Virus record (IMG/VR): IMGVR_UViG_3300030098_005194
Span: 1 to 64,000 of that record
Strand: one strand, 5' to 3'
Origin: a virus
Length of the DNA: 64,000 bases
The notes beneath the pieces were generated by a model. That model did not search any database. It saw only the letters and a list, made by a program, of their open reading frames with translations, and was not told the origin of the DNA. Within the stretch, counting starts at the first letter, position 1; each line of letters begins with the position of its first letter. This document shows positions 2,811-51,000 of the stretch, in pieces. The position numbers and the translations under genes were made by a program.

Positions 2811-3436
2811 GAGAAGTAGAAAAGATGAGTATGGAAGAATTGCAGAGAGAAGTCAGACGGTTGCGTAACCAAGCTACGAGTTGCGACGAGAAATGGTTCA
2901 ACCCTAACTGGTGGTGGAACGACATTGATTGTGATGAGGCTTTGGACAAGTACATCAACGAGGATTACGGAACACCTGCTAGGGAATTGTTGAAGGAGTT
3001 GTACGAAGGCATCCTATCGCTTGGTGATTTCAGAAGCGGAGTGAACGATTGCAGAGTAACTACGCTGGACACAGTGACCAAGCACCATCCGTCCTACGAT
3101 GAGTTGCTTGAGAACGAGGGTGGTTGCAGAACGACCTTCACTGTGAACACCGGCATGATTGCGCAGAACTCCTTCGGCACTGTTGCACAGGAGGATGGTG
3201 TGGAATTGAAAATGAACATCAGTGTTGGGCCAATGAAGGAAGGTGGTCTGCAACGTGGTTGCTTTGAGTATTACGACAAAGATTGTGAGTGGTACGCAGA
3301 AGGTGGACTGTGGTTTGAGAACAGGGAGCTTGTGGACTTCGATGGCTCTTACTCGTTGTCCAAGTACATAGCTGACTGGCTGATTGAGCAGGGGTTCAAG
3401 GTTTCCCCTATCTATTGGGGAGGGAAGAAAGAATGA
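2807..3436 (+). CDS. Unrecognised acidic protein
   Basis: 209 residues. The N-terminal ~25 residues are a charged helix of Glu/Arg heptad type, followed by a Trp-rich segment (NPNWWWND, about residues 32-39) and a mixed alpha/beta remainder with scattered Cys. It ends in a Lys-rich tail whose DNA supplies the GGGAGG ribosome-binding site of the next gene. No family recognised. Confidence 0.75.
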   Translation: MREVEKMSMEELQREVRRLRNQATSCDEKWFNPNWWWNDIDCDEALDKYINEDYGTPARELLKELYEGILSLGDFRSGVNDCRVTTLDTVTKHHPSYDELLENEGGCRTTFTVNTGMIAQNSFGTVAQEDGVELKMNISVGPMKEGGLQRGCFEYYDKDCEWYAEGGLWFENRELVDFDGSYSLSKYIADWLIEQGFKVSPIYWGGKKE

Positions 3437-5805
3437 CACCGGAAACAATGCACAAAGTTGTCAAGCACTTCTTGACCTACGGCGCACCCAACAGTGAGGA
3501 CTTCATTGGACCGAACAAGTTTGACTGGGACTTCTTCTGTGAGATGGGGGCTAAGAGAGAGCTTACGCAGATGGATGTGTACTGGTGTGCAAAGAGATTG
3601 CAGAAGTACAGTAGGACACAAGTGCCTCTCATCTGTGAGGATTTGGGGATACCACTTGTGAACATCAACGATGTGTACGTAGCTACTATGCTTGAGCTTG
3701 CACAGGACGATGAACCTGCGGTGTATTACACAAGGTACGTCGAGGACTGGCAGAGTGCTAAGGGTTACTCTGGACAGACCAAGCGTATTATTGTGAAGCC
3801 TAAGTTTGGTATGCGCAATGACTTGTACAATCAGCTCAGTGGTGGACTTGGCTTCCCTGCGTTCAAGTATCTGGGTAAGCACATTGGTATGTCCATTAAG
3901 GATGACACTGACACAATCAGAAAAGCATCTGTCATTATCAACGATGCCGGATTTGATACCACGCAACTACTCAGTATGCTTGAGGGTGCAGAGGTCAAGG
4001 AGGAACAACCACAGGACTACACAGTAAGATTGCACAAGGATGCGGTTGCCATGTACATACCTTACGCAAGTAGTGGGGTGCATGCACAGACTAGAATCAG
4101 TGCCAAGTCAAACGATGGTAAGTGGTTGCCTGACACAAAGGAATGGGCAGTGCCACTGGCTACTGTGAGTGACTTCCTAGATGAGATTATGAGTTTCAAT
4201 GCTGAGTTGCACACCATGGTCATGTCCATTGAAGAAGTGAACAACTACGTGTCGAACAAGGCCGAGAGGATAACGATAAGCAGTGCGCCTTCCCTGAGTG
4301 ACGAGAATGTGATTGACTCCATGAGGCAGAGATTGAGCGAGGTGTTCCCAGATGGCATGGAGCTTTACCCATTCCAGTACGCAGGTGTAAGGTTTGGTGA
4401 GCTTTCCAACGGAAGATGGTTGATTGGTGATGAGATGGGACTTGGTAAGACGGTGCAAGCCATTGCGTACATGGGACTTCACCCTGAGCAGATGCCCGCA
4501 CTGATTGTATCACCCGCAGTTGTGAAGTACAACTGGCTGAAGGAGTGTAAGACTTGGCTATCCAATGTGTACACGATGGACGTTGTTGAGAAAACCAACA
4601 GTCCCATACCAGATACGGACATCGTAATCATCAACTACGATTTGATGTCCAAGCAGAAGGACAACCTACTAGGTAGGTTCAAGACGGTTGTGTTCGATGA
4701 GTCGCATTACCTGAAGAATCGTGGTAGCAAGAGCAAGCCTGTGCAGAGAACGAAGGCGTGCATGGAAGTAGCAGAAGAGGCTGAGTGTGTCATCTGCCTT
4801 TCCGGTACTGCGATACCCAACAGACCGATTGAGTTGTGGAACACCATATCAATGCTTAGACCGACAGAGTGGAAAGGTAAGTGGCAAGACTACGTGACTA
4901 CGTACTGTGATGGTTACAGGGGTGACTTCGGTTGGGTTGTTGATGGTGCGTCGAACCAAGATGAGTTGCACAAGAAGACAAGGGACTTCATGATACGCAG
5001 ACTGAAGAAGGAAGTGTTGCCTGACCTACCCGACAAAGTGAGGCAGTACCCGGTTGTTACACCTGACGCTGACATGCTCAAGGAGTACAGGAGAGCTGCG
5101 CAGACTTGGGCAAGGGGGATGAAGAGTGACGATAGACCACCGGGTTACGTACTCAATATGCTGACTGACTTGAGGAACAGATGCGGAGAGATGAAGGCAG
5201 AACCCGCAGCACGATGGGCTCTTGAGTACCTTGAGCAGAATGACACACCCATCATTGTGTACTCACACCACCTGAAGATACACAAGATGATTGAGACGAA
5301 GATGAATGAGATGAGGCAATCGGATATGAACAAAGGTAGGACAAGACACAACAGGGCTTTGCGCATAGCAACCATAGATGGCTCAGTCGCTCCCAAGAAG
5401 AGGCAGGAGATTGTGGAGTCATTCCAGAACAACGAGCTTGATGTGCTTCTCTGTTCCACAATCGCAGCAGGTGTGGGTCTTACGCTCACCGCAGCTGACA
5501 CGGTGCTGTTCGTTGAGAGGGAGTGGGTTCCCGCACACGAAGAGCAAGCCGAGGATAGGGTGAGTAGGATTGGAGCAGAGGACAAGGACACTGTGTGGGC
5601 TGTGTATCTAACGATTGAGAATACGATTGATGCGAAGTTCAACAGGATAGTCGAGAGCAAGCGCAAGGAGATAAAGGCGATACTGGATGGTGGTGAGATT
5701 TGGGAGCGCACAAGCATACTCAACGACTTGCTGAAGGCGATGGTAGATTCGGGTGAGTTACCCAAAGATGCGTTATCCGAATATGTAGAAGGAGATTTAC
5801 TTTAA
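3433..5805 (+). CDS. SNF2-family (SF2) DNA helicase/translocase
   Basis: 790 residues from the ATG at 3433 (GGGAGG upstream; an in-frame TTG at 3415 is less likely). The C-terminal two thirds is a two-lobe SF2 engine of the SNF2 group: Q-motif-like YPFQYAGVRF, Walker A DEMGLGKT (Lys about 339), DESH box (about 422-425), motif III LSGTAIPN, and lobe 2 with AAGVGLTLTAADTV and the motif VI segment EDRVSRIG (Arg about 712). The N-terminal ~290 residues are not recognised; they could hold a substrate-binding domain as in SMARCAL1-like proteins. ATP-driven dsDNA translocation for replication-fork or recombination work is the family role. The stop codon lies inside the next promoter. Confidence 0.93.
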   Translation: MTPETMHKVVKHFLTYGAPNSEDFIGPNKFDWDFFCEMGAKRELTQMDVYWCAKRLQKYSRTQVPLICEDLGIPLVNINDVYVATMLELAQDDEPAVYYTRYVEDWQSAKGYSGQTKRIIVKPKFGMRNDLYNQLSGGLGFPAFKYLGKHIGMSIKDDTDTIRKASVIINDAGFDTTQLLSMLEGAEVKEEQPQDYTVRLHKDAVAMYIPYASSGVHAQTRISAKSNDGKWLPDTKEWAVPLATVSDFLDEIMSFNAELHTMVMSIEEVNNYVSNKAERITISSAPSLSDENVIDSMRQRLSEVFPDGMELYPFQYAGVRFGELSNGRWLIGDEMGLGKTVQAIAYMGLHPEQMPALIVSPAVVKYNWLKECKTWLSNVYTMDVVEKTNSPIPDTDIVIINYDLMSKQKDNLLGRFKTVVFDESHYLKNRGSKSKPVQRTKACMEVAEEAECVICLSGTAIPNRPIELWNTISMLRPTEWKGKWQDYVTTYCDGYRGDFGWVVDGASNQDELHKKTRDFMIRRLKKEVLPDLPDKVRQYPVVTPDADMLKEYRRAAQTWARGMKSDDRPPGYVLNMLTDLRNRCGEMKAEPAARWALEYLEQNDTPIIVYSHHLKIHKMIETKMNEMRQSDMNKGRTRHNRALRIATIDGSVAPKKRQEIVESFQNNELDVLLCSTIAAGVGLTLTAADTVLFVEREWVPAHEEQAEDRVSRIGAEDKDTVWAVYLTIENTIDAKFNRIVESKRKEIKAILDGGEIWERTSILNDLLKAMVDSGELPKDALSEYVEGDLL

Positions 5806-8062: not shown

Positions 8063-8671
8063 ATGAACATATTCATACTAGATGAGAACCCAGTGAGGGC
8101 AGCACGGGCGATGGACTGTGTGAGAGTACCGAAAATGATTGTCGAGTCAGCGCAGATGATGGCCTCGGCCTTGCGCAGATGGGGAGCCACCGATGAGCAG
8201 ATGCCATTGACTAAGAGTGGCAGTCCATACAAAGGCGGTTATCATCACCACCCATGTACGATTTTTGCGGGAGATACACGTGCCAACTTCAAGTGGTTGG
8301 CTCACCATGCCGAGGCACTGTTGGACGAGTACCACCATAGATTCGGCAAAGTCCATGCTTGCCACAACCCAATCTACCAGATGTCGAGCATGAGCAAGAT
8401 AATTCCCGAAGGCAAACTTACGCCATTCGCACTGGCTATGCCTGATGAGTATAGACCTACGGAACCATCAACATCGCTTCTGGACAATGACACGTTTGCT
8501 AAACAAGGTGTTGGATTCAACTCAGACAATGAGATGATTATCACACACGCAGACGGCGAAGATGCGGTCAAGGCGTACCGTGCCTACTACCACTCCAAGA
8601 TACACAGTGCAGGTGGTGTGCATTACAGACACACAAGCCCGCCTGATTGGTGGATGGGGGTGACGGCATGA
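8063..8671 (+). CDS. Conserved phage-type protein, function unknown
   Basis: 202 residues. The N-terminus has a pattern I recognise from marine phage genomes: a short beta strand, D-x-x-P-x-x-A-A-R, then K-M-I-V-E-S-A-Q-M (about residues 24-32), with a later His/Trp-rich part (YHHHP, about 59-63; WLAHHAEALLDEYHHRFGK, about 77-95). In phages such genes are usually left as hypothetical or given tentative DNA-repair labels; I do not assert an enzyme activity. The conserved His and Asp residues would suit a metal or DNA-binding active site. Confidence 0.72.
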   Translation: MNIFILDENPVRAARAMDCVRVPKMIVESAQMMASALRRWGATDEQMPLTKSGSPYKGGYHHHPCTIFAGDTRANFKWLAHHAEALLDEYHHRFGKVHACHNPIYQMSSMSKIIPEGKLTPFALAMPDEYRPTEPSTSLLDNDTFAKQGVGFNSDNEMIITHADGEDAVKAYRAYYHSKIHSAGGVHYRHTSPPDWWMGVTA

Positions 8672-8853: not shown

Positions 8854-9469
8854 TGATGAAACAAAAGAAAAAGAAATGATAGAATGCTTTGATGGTGTTG
8901 AACGTGAAGTTACGCAAGAAGATTGGAGTGGTGTTGTGGTTGGGTTGGTCGATTTCAACAATTTCCACCCAGAGAAAGGCTTCGCTATGCGTCTGTTCAC
9001 TGATTGGAATAACGTGACGTACAATACCATAGAGTCTGTTATTGAGGGTAGTGGTAAGATTGTGAAGAAGCTTGTGTTAAGTGACAAGTGGAATGACTTT
9101 GTGAAGTATCACAGAGATGATGATTGCGTTGGAGAGTGGTACGAAATACATTATGATGGTGTTGTTGCGGAGGGAGAAAGACCCTACGGTTGTTCGGCAT
9201 CAACGTACAGTTGGAACCGTTGGGTTCAGTACCTACCAACGAGGTCGTGGACATTCCACCGACGTGCAGTGTGGAAGAAGAACGGGGCATCGAACAGCGG
9301 GAAGATAATAACCCGTGAAAGAGCCCGTGAGGAGTTTGAGCAGTATAACACACGCATTGAGATGAGTCCAAAGTACACTGGTGAGCAGAATGGTGGTAAC
9401 ATGAGAGAGAAGGCAGAGATAATGGAAGATAGAGCGAAGGAAGCAGGACTAGAGGTGATTATTGAATGA
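8846..9469 (+). CDS. Unrecognised protein, first gene of third operon
   Basis: 207 residues, start fixed by GGAGGAGG six bases upstream and by the promoter at 8802. Charged N-terminus, beta-rich middle, Trp/Tyr-rich segment about residues 112-150, and a helical Glu/Arg C-terminus. It has only two Cys and no recognisable catalytic motif. Confidence 0.75.
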   Translation: MNDDETKEKEMIECFDGVEREVTQEDWSGVVVGLVDFNNFHPEKGFAMRLFTDWNNVTYNTIESVIEGSGKIVKKLVLSDKWNDFVKYHRDDDCVGEWYEIHYDGVVAEGERPYGCSASTYSWNRWVQYLPTRSWTFHRRAVWKKNGASNSGKIITRERAREEFEQYNTRIEMSPKYTGEQNGGNMREKAEIMEDRAKEAGLEVIIE

Positions 9470-11199
9470 GGACGAGAGCAGAAAGAAAAGGATATGTGAA
9501 TTGGGACAGGGCTTTGAGCGCAGGTATAGTGGACGAGAAGGTTGCCTTCACGGACAACCAGACCCTCACCGACCTGACGCTGGGCAACACGAAAGAAACA
9601 ATGGGTAAGTGCTACCCAATGGACTTGGCAGTTGCCTACACATTGGCTTCGGTTGGACCGGACAAGATGTTGAATGCGGAGGATATGGTGAATGAGTACA
9701 CAAGAACTGCGTACGTGATGATGAGTGGCAAGGTCGGATGGGGTGAAGTCCCCAATCCCGATGGGCCAGTCTGTGGTCATGACATGGTGAATGCATGGTT
9801 GTACAAGTGGCCAGAAGCTAGACTGGACAAGCACGGCAGGATTTACTTTGCCAGTAACCACACATACAGGAGTGACTTCACGTTCAGGCTGAACGACAAA
9901 TTTGACCATCACTTCATGAACCCCGTGACTCTGATACACTCTGATACCTTCAAGAAATTGAAGGAGAAGATTGAGTCGGAGCTTGACGTAAAAGAATGGG
10001 GTGTATCAGGTGCGAGTGGTCACTTCCACAGGTCGCAGACATTCGGTGTGTGCAACGAGGCGATGATACCTGATGGCGAGAAGTGCGCACATCACTCCCC
10101 CACCTATGAGACAATGTGGTTCTTGATTAAGGACAATGATGACTACCGCACAATATGGGACGCAGGAGCCGTAAAGCGGGGGTGGAACAACGACCAGTTG
10201 CAGAGTCAATTCGGTTGGGGTGAGAGAAAAAGAATTTCACCTACGCAAGTGACTAGGTTCAGCGAAGTGAGGAGAAGACTAGCCCGTGAAGCTCCCTTGA
10301 AGGGAGTCATCAAGGAAATCAAGAAGTCCCTCACTAGGATGGGCAACTGGTCTTCCGATAGGAGCCTGATTGTGAATGACGCTTGGGAGGACAGGGACAT
10401 CAGCATACCGATTGGTGTGGACGAGAATGGAGAAGAGATGTATGAGAAGGGAGTTAGGCGAGTACCCACTAGGAGGGGCAAGTACACCAAGTACGGTTGG
10501 AAGGACTGGGACTGGGTTGCGAAGGTAGATGTGCAGATACAGGAGTCCAACACTAAAGCTAGGAAGGAAGGTGAGACGCAGTGTTCGATATGCTTCAGCA
10601 AGAATGTGAAGAACGACCTTGGACAAAGTTACTGTGAGTGTGGCAAGGGTTGGAAGTACAATAGATACGAAGTTGAGCGTATGCACGGCCATGAGATTGT
10701 GAAGTTCAGGTGGGAGCCAATAGAGGAGCCCAGTGTGTTTGGGTTCAGTGACTTTGAGTACAGTGGACTCTTCTTCAAGAAGATAAGCGAGGCAACCAAT
10801 GTGAGAAACATGTTCCACAAGGCTCTGAACCACTTCAATGGCACACAGAACAAAAACAGGGTCTGGGACAAAGAGGAGGGCAATTCAATACCTGTCAAGT
10901 TGGACAAAGTTTCAGAAAGAATGGGCATCTCGGAGATAATTCCCAGTGTACCGTTCACTTTACCTTGGGATGCTGACCCGGAATACATAGTTACACCCAC
11001 TGAGATATTACACAAACTGTGCTTTGGTTCTCCTGAAGATTGGGATGAGGCGTTTGAGATAGCTGATGTGCCATCAGCGATGAAATATTCCGGTGGCATG
11101 AGAGTCAGAATGAAGGCCAAGAATGCTGGTTACGTTTCTATGTGGTTGCACAGACCGGATGAGAAGGTAGCTGTTGTTGAAGAGGAGGTGGTAGCATGA
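9466..11199 (+). CDS. Large unrecognised protein with zinc ribbon
   Basis: 577 residues, ATGA-coupled to both neighbours. The N-terminal ~230 residues contain several conserved-looking His clusters (FDHHFMNP, GHFHRSQTFG, CAHHSPTYE). The middle (~250-370) is basic. About residues 375-400 form a zinc ribbon (CSICFSKN...YCECGKGW). The C-terminal ~170 residues are mixed. Together with the ATP-grasp/phosphohistidine gene immediately downstream it may form a two-gene module. Function unknown. Confidence 0.75.
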   Translation: MRTRAERKGYVNWDRALSAGIVDEKVAFTDNQTLTDLTLGNTKETMGKCYPMDLAVAYTLASVGPDKMLNAEDMVNEYTRTAYVMMSGKVGWGEVPNPDGPVCGHDMVNAWLYKWPEARLDKHGRIYFASNHTYRSDFTFRLNDKFDHHFMNPVTLIHSDTFKKLKEKIESELDVKEWGVSGASGHFHRSQTFGVCNEAMIPDGEKCAHHSPTYETMWFLIKDNDDYRTIWDAGAVKRGWNNDQLQSQFGWGERKRISPTQVTRFSEVRRRLAREAPLKGVIKEIKKSLTRMGNWSSDRSLIVNDAWEDRDISIPIGVDENGEEMYEKGVRRVPTRRGKYTKYGWKDWDWVAKVDVQIQESNTKARKEGETQCSICFSKNVKNDLGQSYCECGKGWKYNRYEVERMHGHEIVKFRWEPIEEPSVFGFSDFEYSGLFFKKISEATNVRNMFHKALNHFNGTQNKNRVWDKEEGNSIPVKLDKVSERMGISEIIPSVPFTLPWDADPEYIVTPTEILHKLCFGSPEDWDEAFEIADVPSAMKYSGGMRVRMKAKNAGYVSMWLHRPDEKVAVVEEEVVA

Positions 11200-13610
11200 G
11201 CGACGAGTTCGATGCAACTGACTTGTTCAAGGAGATGCTAGCGGAAGAGGACATTGAAGAGACTGTTGCGGTTGTGACCGACAAGAGGAGAGAGGCGATA
11301 AAGTCACAGAAGGCTACTGCGATATTGGACCTGATTGACTTGAGCTACGATGACGATACGCCGCTGTCACAAGTCGGCTATCACATGCCCACTACTGTTC
11401 CCCTCCTGTTGGATGACGACTTCGATGTGGTGGACAAGGCGTTTGAGAAATGCACTGAGAGAAAATACACGGATGTTATTGAGGATACTGCTTTCCTCAG
11501 AACGTGCCCGCTCACACCAAGACACGGTGTGTTGGAATCCCGTGCGGTGAACGAGTATAACATACTCGATGTGTGGGAGAGGCTTGTTGGAGTGATGAAG
11601 AAAGAAGACCCAGAGGGTTGCTTCCTGATGCAAGAGATGCTGAATGCGTACTCTAGTGCAGTGTTGCATCCCAATCAGTACGCCACACTTGGTCTGGGTC
11701 ATGATGGCGTCACGAACGAGAGTGGCTTGCAGTTGAAGTTTCTCATGAGTGACACCGAGGACTATCTGGCGAAGCACAAGATTGCTACTAAGTTGGGTTA
11801 CAAAGACGGGTTTGAGATGGAGTTCGTTGGTACTGAGGGTCATGACTTGCACTCTCAGAATCCTGACCCCGCTAGTGCCTATGCGTATCTGACACAAATC
11901 AGGCAAGCACCACCACCGAGCCCAATCAGCTCCCCGTTCCAGTACATGAGTGGAGATACGCTTGTGACTGCTGACACTGAGGGCTCAATACCACAAGGCA
12001 GTGTGAATGTGAAGAAGGTGTGGGAACCAGAGGGATTGGTCGAAGTCGCTTGGTTGGAAGCCAACATCACGAAGGGGAATGTCCCGAAGGGTTTCGTCAT
12101 TGCGCATGCCAATGGGTCAATGTCCTCACACATAGCTGCCCACGCAAGGGCTCATGGAATACCGTACATTGTGAGTGACAGTGTTAGTGTTGGCGATGTC
12201 TGGGTAGAGGGCAGTGCAGGTTGGGTAGCATGTGAGGATGGGCTCCCCATTGAACCCAGTCCTTACAACCCATACTCCAATGAGTACGCAGTGGCGTTCA
12301 TGTTGGGATTGAAATTGAGCAGAAGGGGGTATATGAGACAACATGGTTGGTTCGCTCACTTCTTCCACCAGTGGTTGGGTAAGAACGCAAATGGAAAGAC
12401 GAGTGCTATGCTAGCCGGAGTATTCGTAGGTTGGGTTGTGAAAGCAACTCTCTCCGTGTGCCTTGCAGAGATGAGACACTCCGAGAGAATCTGTGATGAG
12501 GCTAGCGTGGACATAGTACCTACCCTGCATGCGTTAGTGAGTCCGAATGTCGGTGTGAAGCCAGAGTGGTTTGCTGGACCTTCCCCACAAGAGATAGAGT
12601 GGACCAAGGTTGAGATGGACATGAGGGACAGAAACCACTGGTATGCCAAGATGGAGTACCTTGACTTGACCTACGTTGAGATAAGAGAGGCTCTGAGATG
12701 GTGTGCTAAGATGTTCAAGGATGGCTGGAAAGGTGGTTACGGCGGAGAGAAGTGGATGACCTGCGCTAATTCTGCGGCTGACATTGCAGATGCAATAATA
12801 CAGTTCGTGAATCACAAGAAGGATACCGGCACATTTGACATTGAGACGTTGATGAGAATCACCAGTATGGCTAACGAGGCTGAGAACTGGCAACACAACA
12901 ACGCTGGTCTGTTCACCAAGTTCCTGAGCATGGAGGCATTCGACTACGCAACCAAGAACGAGAAGACAGGAAAGGGTTTGTTCAGCCACAGGCCATCGTC
13001 AATCAGACACATGTTCCGCACCTTCCAGTTGTACAACATGCTTGTTTCAGGCAATGGTTACATGCCTCACCCACAGAGGCCACAGAACGACTGGTTGGAG
13101 ATACTGAACTTCGCTAACAACCAAGCGAATAACACGTTCTTTCGTACAAATCTGATATGTCAGAGCGAGAAAGTACCGATGTCCATCAGGGACAAGGCAA
13201 ATCAGCTAGGCCCCGAAAGGTTGCATCACTCCAATAAGTACACTATGAATGAGGATAACTTTGTTCCATGTGGACATGAGGAGTGCGAGAAGTGCAATAA
13301 GGTGAACTTGAATGAAGATGACAGTATTGGCGTTGACACAAGCATGTTGCTATCGGACGACTCTCCATCTGTGTTCTTCGCATTAGATGATAGCAAGTCA
13401 TCCCCCATTACATATGATGTTTGCAGGAAGATACGCATGAAGGAGTTTGTATCAGTGGAGGAATTTACAATGGCATGGAATGGACTAGTGAACACCGACA
13501 GGAGCCACAAATTGCTCAGGTCCCTGTTGGCGAAGAAGCTGAAGAAACAGATTGCGTTTGACGAAGAATGGATAGAGAGTCTGGGTACACTGATGGGAGG
13601 TGATGAGTAA
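11196..13610 (+). CDS. PEP-synthase-like ATP-grasp and phosphohistidine-domain protein
   Basis: 804 residues. Residues about 95-240 resemble the ATP-grasp part of PEP synthase/pyruvate-phosphate dikinase: FLRTCPLTPRHGVLES, then LMQEMLNAYSSAV and GLGHDGVTNESG, ending in YLTQIRQAP (about 231-239), which matches the family's YilQxRP ending. Residues about 295-345 resemble the swivelling phosphohistidine domain, with GSMSSHIAAHARAHGIPYIV (candidate phosphoacceptor His about 312) and VGDVWVEGSAGWV. The C-terminal ~440 residues are not recognised and include a Cys/His cluster (CGHEECEKC, about 690-700). This suggests ATP-driven histidine phosphorylation passed to an unknown acceptor. Family call is by motif reading only; the C-terminal PEP/pyruvate barrel is not evident. 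Confidence 0.65.
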   Translation: MSDEFDATDLFKEMLAEEDIEETVAVVTDKRREAIKSQKATAILDLIDLSYDDDTPLSQVGYHMPTTVPLLLDDDFDVVDKAFEKCTERKYTDVIEDTAFLRTCPLTPRHGVLESRAVNEYNILDVWERLVGVMKKEDPEGCFLMQEMLNAYSSAVLHPNQYATLGLGHDGVTNESGLQLKFLMSDTEDYLAKHKIATKLGYKDGFEMEFVGTEGHDLHSQNPDPASAYAYLTQIRQAPPPSPISSPFQYMSGDTLVTADTEGSIPQGSVNVKKVWEPEGLVEVAWLEANITKGNVPKGFVIAHANGSMSSHIAAHARAHGIPYIVSDSVSVGDVWVEGSAGWVACEDGLPIEPSPYNPYSNEYAVAFMLGLKLSRRGYMRQHGWFAHFFHQWLGKNANGKTSAMLAGVFVGWVVKATLSVCLAEMRHSERICDEASVDIVPTLHALVSPNVGVKPEWFAGPSPQEIEWTKVEMDMRDRNHWYAKMEYLDLTYVEIREALRWCAKMFKDGWKGGYGGEKWMTCANSAADIADAIIQFVNHKKDTGTFDIETLMRITSMANEAENWQHNNAGLFTKFLSMEAFDYATKNEKTGKGLFSHRPSSIRHMFRTFQLYNMLVSGNGYMPHPQRPQNDWLEILNFANNQANNTFFRTNLICQSEKVPMSIRDKANQLGPERLHHSNKYTMNEDNFVPCGHEECEKCNKVNLNEDDSIGVDTSMLLSDDSPSVFFALDDSKSSPITYDVCRKIRMKEFVSVEEFTMAWNGLVNTDRSHKLLRSLLAKKLKKQIAFDEEWIESLGTLMGGDE

Positions 13611-14719
13611 TGCCTATGTGTCACACAGGTAATCCAGTTGTGTTTGTCGCTGATGGTATCACCGTTCACGGTGGAGGCAACATGAGGAATGGTGCTTGGC
13701 AGAACATGGATAGTGTGCCGGATGTTGCTATTGGACCAGAAGGTGTCTTGCAGACCCGCTCAATCAGGGACAGTGTTCCTATGGGATGGTCGTGTGCTGA
13801 TGCATTCAACAAGACCAAGCTACCGAAGTTCGTGGTCATCGACTGGCCTGATTACAGCGTACCCACCAATGCGGGCAAAGAGTTCTGGGTAGCCTTGGTC
13901 AATGACTTGAGGGAACATGATGTCAAAACAGTGTCATGCTCTTGTGCAGGTGGCCACGGTAGGACTGGTGTTCAGTTGTGCATACTAGCCCATCTGATGT
14001 TGGACGAGAAGCAGTGGGAGGACGTGGCTGGTTTGATTGACCACATCAGGTCGGTCTATTGCACACACGCAGTGGAGACGCACGAACAGCAATTGTACAT
14101 TGCAGATGTCACAGGTCTGGAGCCCGGTGAAAATCTCTTCACTGGGGTTGACAGTCACGGGTTCGGTGGCTTCGCATTTGATGATATGGATTACGACGAG
14201 GATGATGACGAGGCTTTGCTTGAGGAGTTGAGGAAGAAAGCGAGCGAGAAGAAAAAGAAAACCAAGAGCAACATGTACAAGGGGACATTTCAGAAGGGGA
14301 TGGTTCTGCTAGGTTGCCCAACGTGTGACAACAGCGACTGGCATGAGTCCCCCGTTGAGAAGGGCTCCGTGAGATGTGGGTGTGGCACGGAGATGACCAA
14401 CATTGAGAACACTTTGAAGGAGCCTACTGTCAAGTGCTTTGAGTGTGGAGACGAGTATCATCCCCTTGAGATGCACAATGGTGAATGTAAGTATTGCTAC
14501 ATGTCGGCCATCGGTGCTGGTGGTAGTATAGTGTCCAACGGTAAAACACCCAAGGACAGGAAGTTCTGGTGTGTGGACACTGGTAGGGAGTGGCCACTGG
14601 CATGTAGCATATTGGACAAGGCAGGTGTCGTTGTGAGCGTGACGCCGAAGAAGACGAAGAAGACGAAGAAGGAGAAAACGAAGATAACAGATTACATAGG
14701 AGGAATGAAAGATGAATGA
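13610..14719 (+). CDS. Tyrosine/dual-specificity phosphatase-like protein with zinc ribbons
   Basis: 369 residues, TAATG overlap with the PEP-synthase-like gene. About residues 110-122 carry the C-x5-R phosphatase loop CAGGHGRTG (Cys 112, Arg 118), preceded by a beta strand and followed by a hydrophobic helix, as in PTP/DSP enzymes. An upstream Asp-containing segment (VIDWPDYSVP, about 75-84) may supply the general acid. Residues ~195-230 are acidic then Lys-rich. Then come two Cys clusters (CPTC...CGCG, about 242-266; CFECGDEY...CKYC, about 277-301) and a Lys/Thr-rich tail. The phosphatase half is a common phage cargo; the substrate is unknown. Confidence 0.78.
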   Translation: MPMCHTGNPVVFVADGITVHGGGNMRNGAWQNMDSVPDVAIGPEGVLQTRSIRDSVPMGWSCADAFNKTKLPKFVVIDWPDYSVPTNAGKEFWVALVNDLREHDVKTVSCSCAGGHGRTGVQLCILAHLMLDEKQWEDVAGLIDHIRSVYCTHAVETHEQQLYIADVTGLEPGENLFTGVDSHGFGGFAFDDMDYDEDDDEALLEELRKKASEKKKKTKSNMYKGTFQKGMVLLGCPTCDNSDWHESPVEKGSVRCGCGTEMTNIENTLKEPTVKCFECGDEYHPLEMHNGECKYCYMSAIGAGGSIVSNGKTPKDRKFWCVDTGREWPLACSILDKAGVVVSVTPKKTKKTKKEKTKITDYIGGMKDE

Positions 14720-15194
14720 GATAGAGATAGGAAAGAATGGAAAGATGCAAGTGAAAGTGGAGTATGATAGCGGGGAGGCTGAGATGCACGTGCAATGCGT
14801 CACTAAAGAAGTGGTGATGGGTCGCAACAGACACTACGGTTACTCAGTGAAGATAAAGCCACATGAGCAATTCTTCCAATGGTTGCGTGAGCAGGATGCG
14901 GTGTTGAGGTCAGCAGCCTCTGACAGATTGTTGTACACACCATTTGAGTTGATTGAGTATCAGAATGGCGACATTCAGATGTACGTACCGGGCAAGCCAG
15001 CTAATCATCCACAGGGTGCTGTGTTGGATTTATCGCCCAGTGACGAACGTGTGAAGAACCTGATTGTGTTTGCTAAGAAGGCGGGGTTGATTAAGACGGT
15101 TGACCACCCTGAGAGATGGACGCCTTCAGCGACTATGACACTTCAAACTTGGTTTAACGGTGATGTATTTGACACGTTGGAGGAAGAGGAATGA
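14712..15194 (+). CDS. Unrecognised protein
   Basis: 160 residues, overlapping the phosphatase gene by eight bases with AGGAGG just upstream. Beta-rich N-terminal half, helical C-terminal part, acidic end. No motif recognised. Confidence 0.72.
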   Translation: MNEIEIGKNGKMQVKVEYDSGEAEMHVQCVTKEVVMGRNRHYGYSVKIKPHEQFFQWLREQDAVLRSAASDRLLYTPFELIEYQNGDIQMYVPGKPANHPQGAVLDLSPSDERVKNLIVFAKKAGLIKTVDHPERWTPSATMTLQTWFNGDVFDTLEEEE

Positions 15195-16762: not shown

Positions 16763-17007
16763 GAGCAGATGATGTAAAATTGGATTTTGATGGAAGCATA
16801 GTGATTGGAGACACGATACACCCCATGGGTAGTACGATGTGGCAGATTGATGGGATTCCGTTTACTCCAGTAGAAGCAACTATAAACACATGTAAATGTC
16901 GAGAGCCTACGATTGTGTTATTTTGTGAGGAAAGGAACATTGTTGAGATATGTAAAAACTGCAATGAGATAAGGCTATACGAGCCGGAGAGTGAAAGAAA
17001 TGAGTGA
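16759..17007 (+). CDS. Small Cys-rich protein, unknown
   Basis: 82 residues, ATGA overlap with the nuclease gene. Beta-rich start, then a CKC pair (about 45-47) and a CKNC pair (about 66-69), plausibly a zinc ribbon. Confidence 0.68.
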   Translation: MRADDVKLDFDGSIVIGDTIHPMGSTMWQIDGIPFTPVEATINTCKCREPTIVLFCEERNIVEICKNCNEIRLYEPESERNE

Positions 17008-17719
17008 AAACAGAGATGGAATAATAAATTGGATGAATGAACAGAACAAGAACTGGGCTGAACAGCACTTTGCTAACATGCCCATGAATGGTGTTTGGGC
17101 TGGAGGTCTTGGCTTTGTGATGATGAAAAAATCAGATAGTCAGATTTCTCTAGTCTGTGCGATAGATGACCCTATAGTAAGAACAAATCTAGCAGGTCTA
17201 CAAGTTCTATTGTACGACTTGGGTTACAGCTACGAAGACTTGGACGCCTCTTGGTCAGACCCACCCCAGAGTGAGGAGGAGATGAGAGAGTTTGAGAGAG
17301 TGACTGAGCAATTGGTCATCAATAGTTGGAAGTGCGAGTGTGGTTATCCGATGATGGAGATTAACGTGAGTGATTGCTTTGCTAGGTACATAGAGACGGA
17401 AGAGGTACTGTTGGACAGTGGAGACACTGAAGAGGTCGAGATTTGGACTTACCCCCTGATTTGCACGTGTGGTAGAAGATTGGATGTGAATCCAGATGAC
17501 TTCATCAGAATGCATGGACAGGCAAAGATGCACACACATGACACACCAGATGGAGATGTGATACAAGCATACACCAGATACGAGATATGCAACTGCACTG
17601 ATGAGGAAAGGGAGAAGCTCTTCGTCGTTGGTGACTATTGGCCAGACGAGAGCAACAAACTACCGCCATGGATGAGAGGACTAGTCTGTGGCATCGCAGA
17701 TGGAGACGAAGAGGAATGA
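17000..17719 (+). CDS. Unrecognised protein with two Cys pairs
   Basis: 239 residues from the ATG at 17000, overlapping the previous stop by eight bases. About residues 112-158 hold CECG and CTCG pairs separated by ~40 residues, forming a candidate zinc ribbon. Acidic overall. No family recognised. Confidence 0.72.
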   Translation: MSENRDGIINWMNEQNKNWAEQHFANMPMNGVWAGGLGFVMMKKSDSQISLVCAIDDPIVRTNLAGLQVLLYDLGYSYEDLDASWSDPPQSEEEMREFERVTEQLVINSWKCECGYPMMEINVSDCFARYIETEEVLLDSGDTEEVEIWTYPLICTCGRRLDVNPDDFIRMHGQAKMHTHDTPDGDVIQAYTRYEICNCTDEEREKLFVVGDYWPDESNKLPPWMRGLVCGIADGDEEE

Positions 17720-35286: not shown

Positions 35287-35454
35287 ATGGATATTACGGA
35301 AGAAATAAAATTGAAAAAAGGATTGCACGAACTTTTGGTCTTAGTCACTCAAGGTTCAGCTTTGAGCGACATACAAAGAAACGCATCGAGAATTGCTGTT
35401 GAGGTTGGATGGCCATTCTATCCGTGGGAGAAAAATGGAGATGAGGAAGAATGA
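35287..35454 (+). CDS. 55-residue protein, unknown
   Basis: ATG at 35287 two bases after the exonuclease stop; the TGA overlaps the chaperonin ATG. Two helices, a GWPFYPWE motif near the end and an acidic C-terminus. Too short for a family call, but packing supports coding. Confidence 0.6.
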
Positions 35455-36971
35455 GTGAGGAAAGAATAGACCCTCTACATAACAATATCAGAGCAGCTAG
35501 AGCGATAGTCAACACAGTTAGAACAACTCTTGGCCCAAGAGGTCGGGATAAGATGATGGTAGACGCTAGTGGGGACGCCATAATAACGAATGATGGTGCG
35601 ACTATTCTTAGAGAAATTGAGGCAGCACACCCTGCGGCTAAAATGATTATCGATATCAGTAAGACCCAAGAGAGTCTATGTTACGATGGGACTACCAGCA
35701 CAGTCGTTCTAGCGGGACAGATGTTAGCTGACTCAGAGAATCTCTTCAGCAAAGGAGTGCATCCTTCTTTAGTATGCGATGGCTATAACAAAGCAGCAAG
35801 AATGGCTGTTGAATATTTAGATGAGGTTCTCTCAAGAGACGCTGAAGAAGGAGATTTGGAAAAGGTAGCAGAAACTGCAATATCTGGAAAAACATTAGCA
35901 GCAGCTAAAGACATAGTTTCACAACTTTGTGTAGAAGCAGTAAAGATAGCAGGTGATGCTGATAGCGTCAAAGTATTGACATTCCCCGGAGGGGCATTGA
36001 CCGACTCGCATTTGTTCAAAGGTGTAGTTGTGAACAAGGATTACTCAATAGAAATAGAAGTGCCAAAAGAAACTAGAGTTCTACTGTGTATGAGTGGTTT
36101 AGAATATAATAAAGATGAAAGAATACAATTTAATGTAAGTAATATGGAAGACTATTCTAAGTTCAAGTCTCAATCTAAAAATAGAAAAGAGCAACACGAT
36201 TTAGCTAAGGCTATTGTGGAAAAATTACCAGAAGGAGGGGTTTTATTCACTAGGGACAATGTAGATGAAGCGATACTGGCATATCTACACAAACATAACA
36301 TAGGTGTAGTAAAAAGAAATCAAGAAAGCATAATGAGAGCCTTGTCTTCTGCTTTAGGCGCCAACATAGCTCATTCAGTACAAGATTTAGAAGATGCAGT
36401 AGATTGTCAAATAGTTAGAACCAAGCATAATGACATACACTATTTGTTTGTGCAGGGAGAGGTCGAGTCAAAGCAATCTACACTGATTGTTAGAGGTGCA
36501 AGTCATACGACTCTGGATGAAGTAGAGAGAGGTTTTGACGACGCCTTGGGGGTTGTCTCATTAGTCATGAATGGTGGTAAGGTTGTTTCTGGTGGTGGTT
36601 CTACATATGCAGCCATAGCTAGTCATTTGAGAACACAAGCTCCAAAGGTAGAAGGTATGGAACAAATGGCAGTGAATTCCTTTGCAGATACATTGGAAAT
36701 AATACCAGCTACAATAGGCGAGGTTGCTGGACACACGCCTTTGAATTGCATATTTGCTTTGAGACATGCTATATCAGAGGGCAAATTAACAATGGGCCCT
36801 GATGTAGAAAAAATAAATCAAATCGTAGATATGAATGATTTGGGCGTTATAGAACCAGCTCAATTAATCAGACAGTCTATACTAAGCGCCACAGAGGTAA
36901 CAACAGCGATACTCAAAATAGATGATATAGTTGTAAAAAGGGGCAATGGTGATGGGCAGACTCACGGATAA
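35451..36971 (+). CDS. Group II chaperonin (thermosome/CCT type)
   Basis: 506 residues, slightly shorter than cellular thermosome subunits. Signature segments: [42 protein letters not shown] (the G-D-G-T-T motif with Tyr 78 replacing the first Gly; Asp 79 kept), [13 protein letters not shown] and the C-terminal [11 protein letters not shown] ... [16 protein letters not shown]. Equatorial, intermediate and apical domains are all represented. It would fold viral or host proteins, perhaps the huge structural proteins encoded on the opposite strand. A viral thermosome is a known hallmark of magroviruses. Confidence 0.93.
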
Positions 36972-46346: not shown

Positions 46347-46693
46347 TATTTCACCTCTATCAATAATTGGATTTTTATCTCATTCTCAGTTGTTTTGAGA
46401 ATTGGAGCGAAGACGTGTCTGCTTACTGGTGTGAAGCCACTGGTGTCCCTCATCTGAACATAGACTTCCTTGATGGTTTCATCGTAGCTTTCTGTTGTGG
46501 GTAGTGTGGCTTCCACTAACAGACTATTGCTATCAAGTATCTTGACGGTGGGGGTGAGAGTCACAGGGGCTGGTTTTCCGGGTGAGCCATCGCTACTAGT
46601 TGCAGGTGTACCATCGAAACCTACTTTGACTTCGTTTATGTTATTGGCGATAGTCTCCACCAAGAGCCTCTTCAAATAATCATTAACTGCCAT
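46346..46693 (-). CDS. Small tail/baseplate protein
   Basis: 115 residues, TAATG overlaps with both neighbours. Helical start (NDYLKRLLVETIANNINEV) and beta-rich remainder ending in FTPVSRHVFAPILKTTENEIKIQLLIEV. Location between the hub-like and fibre genes suggests a connector. No named family. Confidence 0.6.
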   Translation of the reverse strand: MAVNDYLKRLLVETIANNINEVKVGFDGTPATSSDGSPGKPAPVTLTPTVKILDSNSLLVEATLPTTESYDETIKEVYVQMRDTSGFTPVSRHVFAPILKTTENEIKIQLLIEVK

Positions 46694-48087
46694 TAGAACA
46701 CCAAAAACCTCTCATCTGCTTCTTTTTTACCGAGTCCAATCGTTTTTGCACTACCGCCTATACTAACTCTGTTTGCGTTACGGCCTATTAGAAGAGGTGT
46801 ACCGCTAACATCTGTCACAGTGAGGAGAAGGGTGGTCTTTATATCAATTTCATCAAAGAAACCGTAGTCAACTTGCTTTATTTGCTCATTTAGGTCATCG
46901 CTGGTTATCTCTTCAGCTATCGCTTCGTCCTCAAACACGGACCTGATTGCTGTATCAGCACCTGATTCTAGTGTAAGGAAAGTAAAGTCGCTTAGTTGTG
47001 AGGCTAACATGTGGCTAGCTGACATGACGACATATTTTCTGTTGCCGTAACTAACAATCTCTCCCGGTCTTATGAACCAAGATTTTGGATGGCCTTTTGT
47101 TTCCATTCTCGTTGCTAGGAGTCTGTTTGCCTTGAGCATCTGTCTTGCTACGGACCTTGACTCCTGTTCTGACATTATAGAATTATCAAAGTGCGGCATG
47201 GGTTCCTCTGCAATTTCGATATTGAACCTGCCTTGTTGAGTAGCGTCATTGAGAGTAACAGATGAATTGTCATTCAAGGCGATTTGACGACCGACCACTG
47301 TAACTCTGTTTGCACTGTCATCCACTGTGTTGGTATTTTCACTGTCCGTTCTCAAACTCGCTGATAGGAAATGTGGTTTTCTAGAATAGTTGAAAGGTAT
47401 GAACAATAAGTTGCCATGCATGTCGTAATCTAAGATTCTATTATCCCTTCTTCCCAAAGTCGTGAGAGCTGTCATCAGGCTGGCATTGTTGAAATTATGA
47501 GCGAAGAAAGTCTTGCTGTGTTTTTGCCTCTGTGTTGTTGCGTTAGCCACGGACAAAGGCTCGCCTATTGAAAAAGACGTTACTGTGCCATCTAGCTCCT
47601 TGCCGATTTCCAAAGCCAAATCAGTTGTTCTAAATCCTACGTTTATTGGCTGACCCATTTTCACCTCATCAGAAAAACCAAATGTTGACAGATTTTCATT
47701 TTTCATATTTGGCAAATGAACTCTTATTTTTTTATCCAAAACCTCTATTTTTTGTCTTAAAAGACGTTTTTTATTATCATTAGCATCATACAAAATTTCT
47801 GATGAAGAGTCATTTCCATATGGCGTAAAAATATTTTCTTCAAAGGTATGACCCGGAGTTTTTGTGTGTGACACAAGCAAGGAGGACTCCTCTTCCTCTA
47901 TCCTGTAACTGCCTTCTTTTGATACTCTGTAGGAAGTTGTGGAAATTGTGACTTTTGGTTTTTCAGATTGTTGGGACTCGTATTTTCCGTAGTGCAGAGC
48001 GTTGTCAACAAAGACTGGTTTTCTGATATCTACCATAACCTCAGTTAGCGATTCGGAAAAAGCACCCTTGGTCGATTGTATCCTCAT
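46693..48087 (-). CDS. Baseplate hub-like protein
   Basis: 464 residues, ATGA overlap with the giant gene. Middle part (residues ~205-370) reads like phage hub/gpD-type proteins: HNFNNASLMTALTTL, NLLFIPFNYSR, NRVTVVGRQ and WFIRPGEIVSYGNRKYVVMSASH. The N-terminal ~160 residues are charged, with AT-rich DNA. C-terminus Gly/Lys-rich. The call rests on overall layout and on position just upstream of the fibre genes. A plain structural protein is the alternative. Confidence 0.55.
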   Translation of the reverse strand: MRIQSTKGAFSESLTEVMVDIRKPVFVDNALHYGKYESQQSEKPKVTISTTSYRVSKEGSYRIEEEESSLLVSHTKTPGHTFEENIFTPYGNDSSSEILYDANDNKKRLLRQKIEVLDKKIRVHLPNMKNENLSTFGFSDEVKMGQPINVGFRTTDLALEIGKELDGTVTSFSIGEPLSVANATTQRQKHSKTFFAHNFNNASLMTALTTLGRRDNRILDYDMHGNLLFIPFNYSRKPHFLSASLRTDSENTNTVDDSANRVTVVGRQIALNDNSSVTLNDATQQGRFNIEIAEEPMPHFDNSIMSEQESRSVARQMLKANRLLATRMETKGHPKSWFIRPGEIVSYGNRKYVVMSASHMLASQLSDFTFLTLESGADTAIRSVFEDEAIAEEITSDDLNEQIKQVDYGFFDEIDIKTTLLLTVTDVSGTPLLIGRNANRVSIGGSAKTIGLGKKEADERFLVF

Positions 48088-51000
48088 GGTGAGTCCCCGC
48101 TATGGTCATCAGTTCCGAATGTTACATCACCTTTGTGGCCTTTCGGATGGAGAGTTTGTGAAAATCTTGGTTTTACCGAGAAGTCACCAGCTCTCACTGA
48201 ATCAGCCCTGTGATGCTGTAAGGTGTTCTCAGACACCAATAATCTACCAACACCAGTTGTCAAATCGGTGTTGTCGAAGGAAGACTGCTCGCTTGTTTGT
48301 ATTGTAGGGCCCTGTGAGCTTACAGTCCCGTAATCACTCGTGAACAAGACAACTGGGTAGTAAGGGCCGTTGGCATTCGGATTTGATGAGCCCACATAGA
48401 AAGAAGAGCTAGCTGGATTGTCCACTTCGTAATTGAAGTAACCGTACTTGCCACCAGATGTGAAATTCAGATAGCCTAGTGTGTATTGAGGTGAGCTAGA
48501 GTGTAAATTGTCATTCAGTCTGTACATTTCCACATGTCTGTTGTCCAATTGTCTTATCGGTCTAATTAGGAATTTTACTGACTTATCGGTTCTGTTGTTT
48601 GGTTTTGTTGTGAGTTTTCTAGTGGCGTTTTGATATGGATTGGATGATTTTGTAGGGGAGGCAATGTTGTTCTTGCCCCAACCAGTGTCATCAAAAGAAC
48701 CAGCGTAACTTCTGACTTCCAAGATGTAGGAGCCACCATACGGTCTGAATGAGTTTGTGTGTGAGAATCTCAAAATTCCAGAGGCTAACGAGCCATCAGA
48801 CTGCCTAGAGAAAGACGTTGGTATGTCTATATTAGCTGCAGTTCTGGCATCTCTTTGTAGTGATGCACTCAAAGACACTCTCTGTCCCATGTTACGGTCA
48901 GTGTGGAGGCTGTGTGCCTCTGTTGTGATGGCTACGTGATTCTCCTCCAATCCGTCATACAAGGGGGCGTCTATGCCTATTCTTGGGCTGGTCCTGCTTA
49001 TTGGCTCCAGATGCTTGCTAGAGCCTACTATGGTGTCTGTTCTGCCTCCCACGTTAGCCTCTGGCTTGAGAAGCCCATCCTCTGAGATTGATAGCTTTGA
49101 GCTTATGCCACGCTTTATCTCATCGGCTTGCAGTACATCGTTACGGGGTCTTGTGAAACCAGCGCCAAGAGTTGGCTCACTAGTGTTGGAACTGAGGACT
49201 ACACCAGTTTTTTCATCTGTAACTGAGACATCAGTGAAAATGCATTCGTTGAAGGATGTGGGGTATCTAGAACCCCTCCCGTTGCCCATGCAACCCACCC
49301 TGAGTGAATGTACAGGGGAGAATACGTCCACTAGGTCATTGTTACTACCGTTTAGATTGGAGTCGTTTTGTGTGCCTCCAAATCTAGGAACGGTAAAATC
49401 TGCTGTAACACTTACATTTCCACTGGAATCAATTACGTTTTTGACATTGAAAAGTGGTTTACCACCATTCCAGATTCTATCGAACGGGGTATTGCTACCC
49501 ATCTTGTACGCATTGCCGCAGTCCCATGCTGGTCTGATACCGAATCCACGCACTGGGGCACGCCTTACGTCCTCTCCACGCTCATTACCCCACCAATCTA
49601 CCAAATAGTATTGAGATGCCTCAGATAGCTCTGTAATGCCCTTTGGCTCACTATCGCCCCACCAGTCCCTTTGCACAGTTATAGACTCCGACGTATCAGT
49701 GGCAGGGTTTCTAAGCGTGCGTAACGGTGTACCGAAAGGCCGTGTCATCCTTCTTCCTTGTGCGTAACGCACCTGATGGCCAGCTATGTCGTTGTTCAGC
49801 ATACCAGTGAAATTCGTGCTTCTCTCCAGTATGCCCGTGTAAGTGAGTGGTATGCTTCCATGGCTCTCCATCTGGATTATTGGGCCAGAATCGTAGTTTG
49901 TGGTGTTAAAAGCGCTACCAGAGGCGGTTCCCTCATAGACAGCGCGAGCTGGGAGAAGACCCCATCTGGGTCTGTTGTAGGCTTGCCGTACAGCGATACG
50001 GTATCCAAAGGCTCTTCTCTTTGTATCTGAGGTGGACGAGCTGATTCCGCTAGAAACAGAGTAACTACCGTCATCGTCGTCATCTACCCAATTTAAGCCC
50101 ATTTGGTCATAATCACCCGGTTTGCTCCAAGAAGCAGAAGCTATTGTGTATTCCTCCAAACTACTGGCTTGGGGGCCGCCCCTGCTACCACAAGGCCAGT
50201 ATCTGTTGTATAGGACACTTCCAAACTCGCTACCAGATGCACCTCCAGCATCATTGTTAGCATCAACAGTATGTACACCACCCGTTGCATCAGTAGTTCT
50301 TTGTGCTTTTACTTTGAGTGAAAAAGGACCTAGACTCATTGCATATGTAGCAGAGTGATAATGTATAGTTTCATAATGCTCAGGTAGTGCATTATACCTG
50401 TCAGCATCAACAGGTTCTGCATTCCAAGCACGACTAGTGCTTTCTGAAAATATAGTATATGGCCTACCTAGATTCTCATGCCATAAACATAGGAATGCAT
50501 CTGGTGGATTTAGGTTGTTAGTATCTCTAGTACCTAATTTAATATCATCTAAATTAGTTGCGAATATGCTTTTTGTCCTATCCTTAGCATAAGTATTCTC
50601 AGATATTGTATTGTATGTGCTTGAAAGTGTAATCTCAGCACCGTCAAATATATTGTTTAGGAAGTTGGTACTAGTTGCAGTGCTTGGTAAGGTGAATATA
50701 GTTGGTATATTTATCTCAGATGCACTAAATCCACTACGTGATGTATATGGTGCAGAATACGTTTTTCCGTCCTTTCCGGTGTATTGTAGGTGCTTTCCGA
50801 ATCTAGGTAGACTAGGGAAACTACTTGCATTGTCAACTGTTATTTTTCTCGTACTTGTATTGAATGATTGTACTATACATGTAGGTATATTAGATGTATT
50901 TTGAAGTATATGTGAGTATATGTCGGGGTATATTGTAGGGTATCCTTGCATAGTTAGTGTATTTCCTATACTTCCATATGTACTTCTAGAATGTGAATAG

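Follow-up and report, generated by a model that had tools for sequence, protein, structure and literature searches.

Why would a virus carry, in two directly adjoining genes, a protein that appears built to take up phosphate on a histidine and a phosphatase that could take phosphate off again? The locus that raises this question lies in IMG/VR virus record IMGVR_UViG_3300030098_005194, of which positions 1 to 64,000 were analyzed (64,000 nucleotides, hereafter the window). Its plus strand encodes an 804-residue dikinase-phrog_20946 fusion protein (positions 11196 to 13610; family F0, with 27 viral relatives) followed by a 369-residue cysteine-based phosphatase with C-terminal zinc ribbons (13610 to 14719; family F1). 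Both open reading frames lie exactly where a first-pass annotation, made by a model from the letters alone, had placed them, and the TAATG that it had read across their junction is present on the plus strand at 13608 to 13612 (stop codon TAA at 13608 to 13610, start codon ATG at 13610 to 13612, one shared base), making translational coupling of the two genes likely. Compared with the nearest relative (locus L011), the dikinase gene differs at 22, 15, and 112 first, second, and third codon positions and the phosphatase gene at 5, 6, and 52; on this comparison, both coding genes are under purifying selection, strongly so in the case of the dikinase. The whole is best explained, and in our judgment probably so, if this gene pair is the magrovirus branch of a conserved and previously unrecognized phosphotransfer cassette, in which a phosphohistidine relay would serve the phrog_20946 domain alongside the phosphatase.

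The N-terminal half of the 804-residue protein consists of an ATP-grasp-like part (residues 1 to 240; 11196 to 11915, plus strand) and a swivel, or phosphohistidine, domain (residues ~245 to 350; 11928 to 12245, plus strand) containing the predicted phosphorylated histidine, His312 (codon at 12129 to 12131, plus strand), in the motif GSxxSH[IV]xAHxR. Conservation in both proteins was counted over 20 relatives of 32 to 96% identity. K39, R102, E207/E209, Q234, R236, and H312 are unchanged in 20/20 of these sequences, and the two motifs singled out by the first-pass annotation, YLTQIRQAP and the His312 swivel motif, are both present, with T233, Q234, R236, S311, H312, H316, and R318 invariant. 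By motif order and spacing, K39, R102, E207-E209, Q234, R236, and H312 would correspond to K22, R92, E323, Q335, R337, and H455 of pyruvate phosphate dikinase (PPDK).

The fold prediction agrees with this assignment. From 20 natural homologues, AlphaFold2 produced a model (pLDDT 78, pTM 0.75) whose best PDB matches in Foldseek were rifampin phosphotransferase (RPH; 5fbs, E = 4.8e-5) and PPDK (1dik, E = 5.8e-5), followed by many ATP-grasp enzymes; among viral proteins, its best structural neighbor is Gp139 of Bacillus phage G, which is PPDK-like. Profile-profile comparison also places the swivel region in register with the phosphohistidine domain of PPDKs from phages (hhalign p = 0.001, against at least 0.12 for unrelated profiles). 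The first-pass annotation had proposed this ATP-grasp and swivel architecture and had named in advance two outcomes that would count against it, a His312 not conserved among homologues and a predicted structure lacking these folds; neither occurred, because His312 is invariant and the fold matches were found. The family searches it had suggested gave a mixed picture. For the 804-residue protein, the PEP-utilizers family (PF00391) matched below the cutoff (E = 0.0084, residues 304 to 327; 6 of the 20 family members match), and Pfam returned neither PPDK_N (PF01326) nor any family of the phosphoenolpyruvate (PEP) barrel, while its phosphatase partner matched a protein tyrosine phosphatase (PTP) family above the cutoff (PF00102, below). 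A plain sequence search of the 804-residue protein against the PDB found nothing, and a 20-row profile found nothing significant. The ATP-grasp identity of the N-terminal half is thus supported by the modeled structure and the motifs, not by profile significance; the swivel domain, judged by its sequence, carries a histidine of the catalytic type, whose phosphorylation is predicted.

What occupies the place of the PEP/pyruvate barrel? The annotation had noted that no barrel was evident, and this holds: no barrel family matches and the region is modeled as all-helical. It had also described ~440 residues with a Cys/His cluster as unrecognized. The cluster is real (C692/C697/C700, in the C-terminal extension; 13269 to 13295, plus strand; invariant in 20/20), but the region is not without relatives, since its core belongs to phrog_20946, a named and hitherto uncharacterized family. 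Residues ~417 to 577 (12444 to 12926, plus strand; EMRH ... GGYGGxxW ... HNNxGLFxK; the "HNNG" domain) are homologous to stand-alone bacteriophage phrog_20946 proteins (hhalign probability 96.8, p = 2e-10) and share the family signature [EM/RE]xRH, i.e., E/R-x-R-H ... GGYGGxxW ... HNNGxxFxK. E425, R427, G516, G517, H567, N568, and K575 are invariant, and H428 is found in 17/20 relatives. The window version differs from the stand-alone one in being fused to a dikinase and extended by ~230 residues that carry the invariant cysteines. A model of the stand-alone phage protein (54 natural sequences, pLDDT 92.8) is essentially all-helical with one C-terminal hairpin, and no solved fold in the PDB matched it (best E = 0.17, probability 0.13); phrog_20946 is therefore a high-confidence predicted fold with no PDB match.

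The second protein, judged by its sequence, is a genuine Cys-phosphatase of the PTP superfamily. It matches PF00102 above the cutoff (E = 1.9e-5; 17 of 20 homologues match) and the LAR phosphatase in the PDB (E = 3e-7), and the general acid of the WPD loop, C112, R118, and the Q-loop residues Q160/Q161 are invariant. The WPD loop (W79-P80-D81, predicted general acid D81) lies at 13844 to 13852 and the C112-x5-R118 P-loop (C-x-G-G-H-G-R-T-G, invariant in 20/20) at 13943 to 13963, both on the plus strand. The C-x5-R loop of the first-pass annotation was therefore borne out, whereas its two zinc ribbons (14315 to 14446, plus strand; C236/C239/C256/C258 and C276/C279, mostly conserved) fared unequally: the first is kept in most family members, and the second is weaker, C276 being invariant and C279 not. 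Zinc ribbons are absent from the bacteriophage phosphatase relatives examined. The protein belongs to the same phosphatase family as phrog_17568, with which it shares the motif Y-C-x-x-A-V-E-x-x-x-Q, but adds the zinc ribbons and an N-terminal CHxGNP segment. We reject the label "thymidylate synthase" attached to phrog_17568, whose members here are Cys-phosphatases of the PTP superfamily. That label has been carried into RefSeq phage annotations (e.g., NC_042082 and NC_016567).

Is the pairing of these two genes constant? The phosphatase is the next gene after the dikinase in 28/28 viral loci that carry the 804-residue family, which settles the adjacency survey that the first-pass annotation had called for. 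The viruses concerned, among them the marine archaeal virus of the window, look like magroviruses by the criteria of the Magrovirales (tailed virus of ~100 kb, PolB, opposed modules, thermosome). The genome studied here has 102 kb arranged in two opposed modules (replication and morphogenesis), and its PolB (PF00136) is closest to those of haloarchaeal tailed viruses. A group II chaperonin (thermosome) gene lies at 35451 to 36971 on the plus strand (E = 7e-90 to the thermosome alpha subunit 1a6d), and the chaperonin (PF00118) was found in 24/24 cassette-bearing related virus records tested. Absence of the cassette from some thermosome contigs was not counted as loss because many of them are fragments that end before the expected position.

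The cassette is not specific to archaeal viruses. Its parts occur as separate genes in siphophages of Vibrio, Stenotrophomonas, Rhizobium, and Rhodobacter, where they keep one order and are bounded by terminase and DNA polymerase A: a barrel-less PPDK, ~160-residue or small proteins, a phosphatase, phrog_20946 (stand-alone, ~340 residues), often a second phosphatase, and X2, a protein of ~280 residues. PPDK_N and PEP-utilizers match these phage PPDK copies strongly. All 39 named phage genomes with stand-alone phrog_20946 also have a barrel-less PPDK gene: in 36/39 the two lie ~1 to 2.4 kb apart, and in the remaining three they occupy opposite record ends, consistent with where those records were opened. 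Across 80 IMG/VR phage loci, the four cassette genes keep a constant order. X2 lies downstream of phrog_20946 in 75, and the 5 loci without it end within 2.5 kb; PPDK lies upstream in 69, and of the 11 loci without it, 10 start within 3.5 kb. Phosphatases are the immediate neighbors of phrog_20946 in 73 and 71. Absences are nearly all contig ends. The sole phage locus with phosphatases and phrog_20946 in which PPDK went undetected despite ~6 kb of upstream sequence is L103. A scan of genome contigs with the whole 804-residue alignment found no relatives; the same scan with the phrog_20946 alignment found them.

Fused forms also occur outside the magrovirus-like viruses. In a Manatee Spring podovirus, a fused form adjoins a phosphatase (a MAFFT alignment of this protein with full phage PPDKs was unreliable and was not used). 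In "Ca. Obscuribacter" chromosomes, a full PPDK_N and PEP-utilizers module leads straight into phrog_20946 within one polypeptide; fusions of this type occur in 12/53 genomes of the order Obscuribacterales. Most of the 15 loci read have a phosphatase, the small protein OB3, or both beside the fusion (phosphatase in 6 of 15, OB3 in 9 of 15). OB3 and phage X2 share a domain (p = 1.3e-4; other profiles, at least 0.24), and when the profiles of 12 families were compared all against all (66 pairs), the six predicted pairs took ranks 1 to 6. Homology of the phosphatase and of phrog_20946 across archaeal-type viruses, bacteriophages, and bacteria is thus established, as is their strict linkage. No match was found between OB3 and the small protein that follows the window phosphatase (F2, below), and Pfam gave no support for reading the OB3 repeats as SAP/HeH DNA-binding elements, a reading that we do not advance. 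One "Ca. Obscuribacter" genome (G001; loci L050, L141, and L152) holds three paralogous PPDK-phrog_20946 fusions, with OB3 close downstream of each. A 732-residue frame in the chromosome of Umezawaea endophytica (L051, 4759 to 6954) joins a phrog_20946-like domain (SELGH, FGGAAW, HNNGSVFDK) to a cyclophilin peptidyl-prolyl isomerase; no PPDK was detected near it.

The phage copies bear directly on what the dikinase makes. Four papers have called the Vibrio phage PPDK an auxiliary metabolic gene of carbon metabolism (PMC12038007, PMC9229204, PMC10141217, and PMC10272388), that is, an enzyme making PEP or pyruvate for the infected cell, and the strong PPDK_N and PEP-utilizers matches agree with that label. 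It is nonetheless doubtful, because neither the Stenotrophomonas phage DLP5 copy nor the Obscuribacter copies match TIGR01828 past about position 528 of 865, and their scores are 466 to 558 bits against a cutoff of 843. No PEP-barrel family matches phage or Obscuribacter copies, phrog_20946 sits in the place of the barrel in the fusions, and a metabolic role leaves the strict link to phosphatases and X2 unexplained. With the PEP/pyruvate barrel missing, we reject PPDK as a carbon-metabolism gene here and regard this explanation as very improbable; the published interpretation, in which the phages enhance PEP metabolism, is accordingly challenged. Relative to PPDK and PEP synthase (PPDK_N, PEP-utilizers, barrel), the window protein has an ATP-grasp-like part followed by a swivel histidine and motif residues in the same order, and its phage and Obscuribacter relatives match the defining families, but it has the helical phrog_20946 domain in place of the TIM barrel and is linked to a phosphatase.

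How, then, might the parts work together? In every known dikinase, a phosphohistidine swings between the ATP site and the acceptor site. In the relay that we propose, the ATP-grasp half would autophosphorylate His312 from ATP in dikinase fashion, yielding AMP and phosphate, and the swivel domain would carry the phosphohistidine to the helical phrog_20946 domain. This domain would replace the PEP/pyruvate barrel and hold the real acceptor, which would become phosphorylated; the co-translated Cys-phosphatase could then remove the acceptor phosphate or process a phosphorylated intermediate, editing or resetting the product. phrog_20946 most likely holds the acceptor because in the fusions it is placed after the swivel, at the position of the PEP barrel of PPDK, and direct transfer from swivel to phrog_20946 is assumed because fused proteins exist. 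The constant phosphatase neighbor, we infer, most likely acts on that same phosphorylated product. The first-pass annotation's suggestion of opposing kinase and phosphatase activities directed at some host or viral target is likewise an inference. A precedent for a dikinase with a non-pyruvate acceptor is RPH, the best fold match, although its order is ATP, rifampin, and His domain, whereas the putative acceptor domain of the window protein follows the swivel, and no sequence match links the two.

Several observations weigh against this relay. The ATP-grasp half alone is not significant by profile-profile comparison (p = 0.3) and is compact, R102 and the "LMQEM" strand being ~45 residues apart. 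The Foldseek E-values are moderate (5e-5) and the global TM-scores low, which falls short of proof, although low global scores are expected for a multidomain swivel enzyme. Bacteriophages encode the swivel protein and phrog_20946 separately, and profile comparison found no counterpart in either direction between phage X1 or X2 and the accompanying families F2, F3, and F4 of the magrovirus-like block. The shortened and nonsignificant ATP-grasp half would fit a degenerate 804-residue protein that serves as a noncatalytic scaffold, leaving the phosphatase to work alone. That 20 divergent sequences all retain K39, R102, E207/E209, Q234, R236, and H312, in a gene under strong purifying selection, argues the other way, and we consider such a scaffold improbable.

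The substrate of the proposed relay can be approached from the company that the cassette keeps. Our leading guess, and a tentative one, is a nucleic acid, possibly the viral genome itself through DNA hypermodification. In this more specific version of the relay reading, which we hold possible but well short of likely, the cassette would install or activate a modified base or backbone group in DNA or RNA, phosphorylation serving as activation and the phosphatase as processing. Two Stenotrophomonas phages with the cassette, DLP3 and DLP5, have restriction-resistant DNA: DLP3 DNA resisted 15/15 restriction enzymes (PMC7326821), and DLP5 DNA was cut by only 4/36 (PMC5834331). In a search of DLP5, neither a PF00303 thymidylate synthase/hydroxymethylase nor QueC was found. 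Terminase and DNA polymerase genes border the phage cassette, and the magrovirus-like phosphatase carries zinc ribbons. Yet the restriction data concern two related phages, and the papers searched gave none for carriers from Vibrio, Rhizobium, or Rhodobacter; a weak ThyX-like frame lies elsewhere in DLP5 and a clear ThyX in Rhodobacter phage RcZahn, along with methyltransferase and sugar genes, all of which offer other routes to modification; and the Obscuribacterales chromosomal copies would need another explanation or a modified chromosome. Extended to its full breadth, a way of modifying nucleic acids by dikinase phosphohistidine, a new helical fold, and a Cys-phosphatase that is common to archaeal tailed viruses, bacterial tailed phages, and some chromosomes is a speculative prospect.

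Plant glucan water dikinase, which is opposed by the Cys dual-specificity phosphatases SEX4/laforin, offers another model. By the same logic of an ATP-grasp/phosphohistidine dikinase paired with a Cys-phosphatase, the cassette could run a phosphorylation cycle on a sugar polymer, the cell wall, or a small molecule, and the weak GWD1_pHisD match in phage copies (E = 0.06 to 0.09) and the fold match to RPH lean in this direction. However, the sequence match is not significant (E at least 0.06), the domain order differs, no glycan-binding domain is present in the window protein, and no carbohydrate-binding domain or glycan gene was matched in the cassette. The cassette also sits among replication and packaging genes, and the phrog_20946 fold is unlike any known sugar-binding fold. 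We therefore view a glycan or metabolite cycle as rather unlikely. A protein target would draw instead on the phosphatase, whose WPD and Q-loop residues mark it as a true member of the PTP superfamily: together with the phosphohistidine relay, it might rewrite phosphorylation of host or viral proteins and thereby take over signaling. Phosphatases flanking a single dikinase/phrog_20946 pair in fixed order fit a small dedicated pathway better than broad signaling, and no kinase-like acceptor module was found; this takeover appears unlikely.

Under the preferred reading, a phosphotransfer cassette with phrog_20946 as acceptor-holding domain, four gene families that are mislabeled or unrecognized in many phages join into one conserved system spanning archaeal viruses, bacterial viruses, and bacterial chromosomes. 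Their present labels are PPDK "auxiliary metabolic gene," "thymidylate synthase," "pyruvate decarboxylase," "transporter," and "hypothetical protein." In Vibrio phages, X2 (L038, 7411 to 8265, and homologues) is annotated as "pyruvate decarboxylase" or "transporter," names for which no supporting Pfam family was found. In the open-access literature, we found no paper that links dikinase, phosphatase, and phrog_20946 as one system. The window system is a variant of the dikinase kind, and that it marks a path to something categorically new is plausible but unproven. Its function is directly testable because cultured carriers exist (RcZahn, Vibrio phages, and Stenotrophomonas phages).

Other genes accompany the pair in the magrovirus-like viruses. 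A 160-residue protein (F2; 14712 to 15194, plus strand; 131 to 160 residues among relatives) lies directly downstream of the phosphatase in 20/20 relatives. Upstream, a 577-residue protein (F3; 9466 to 11199, plus strand) overlaps the dikinase start by 4 nucleotides and is near the cassette in 19/20 relatives (~510 to 607 residues); it gave a nonsignificant hint of the Mom family (PF25680, E = 0.053, residues 110 to 169). A 242-residue protein (F4; 16991 to 17719, plus strand) is likewise nearby in 19/20, its link to the cassette being uncertain, and a conserved protein of the "NIF-DP-AAQ-HCDKHV-KM" type (8063 to 8671, plus strand) is near it in 11/20 related viruses. PADLOC defense models matched none of ten cassette and neighboring proteins. 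Farther away, the plus strand encodes an SNF2-family helicase (3415 to 5805; PF00176, E = 6e-29; phrog_62, E = 2e-93). On the minus strand, the morphogenesis module includes a 464-residue protein with a weak Imm33-like match below the cutoff (46693 to 48087; PF24719, E = 3e-5) and the window's largest gene by a wide margin, an open reading frame of 5,276 residues at 48084 to 63914.

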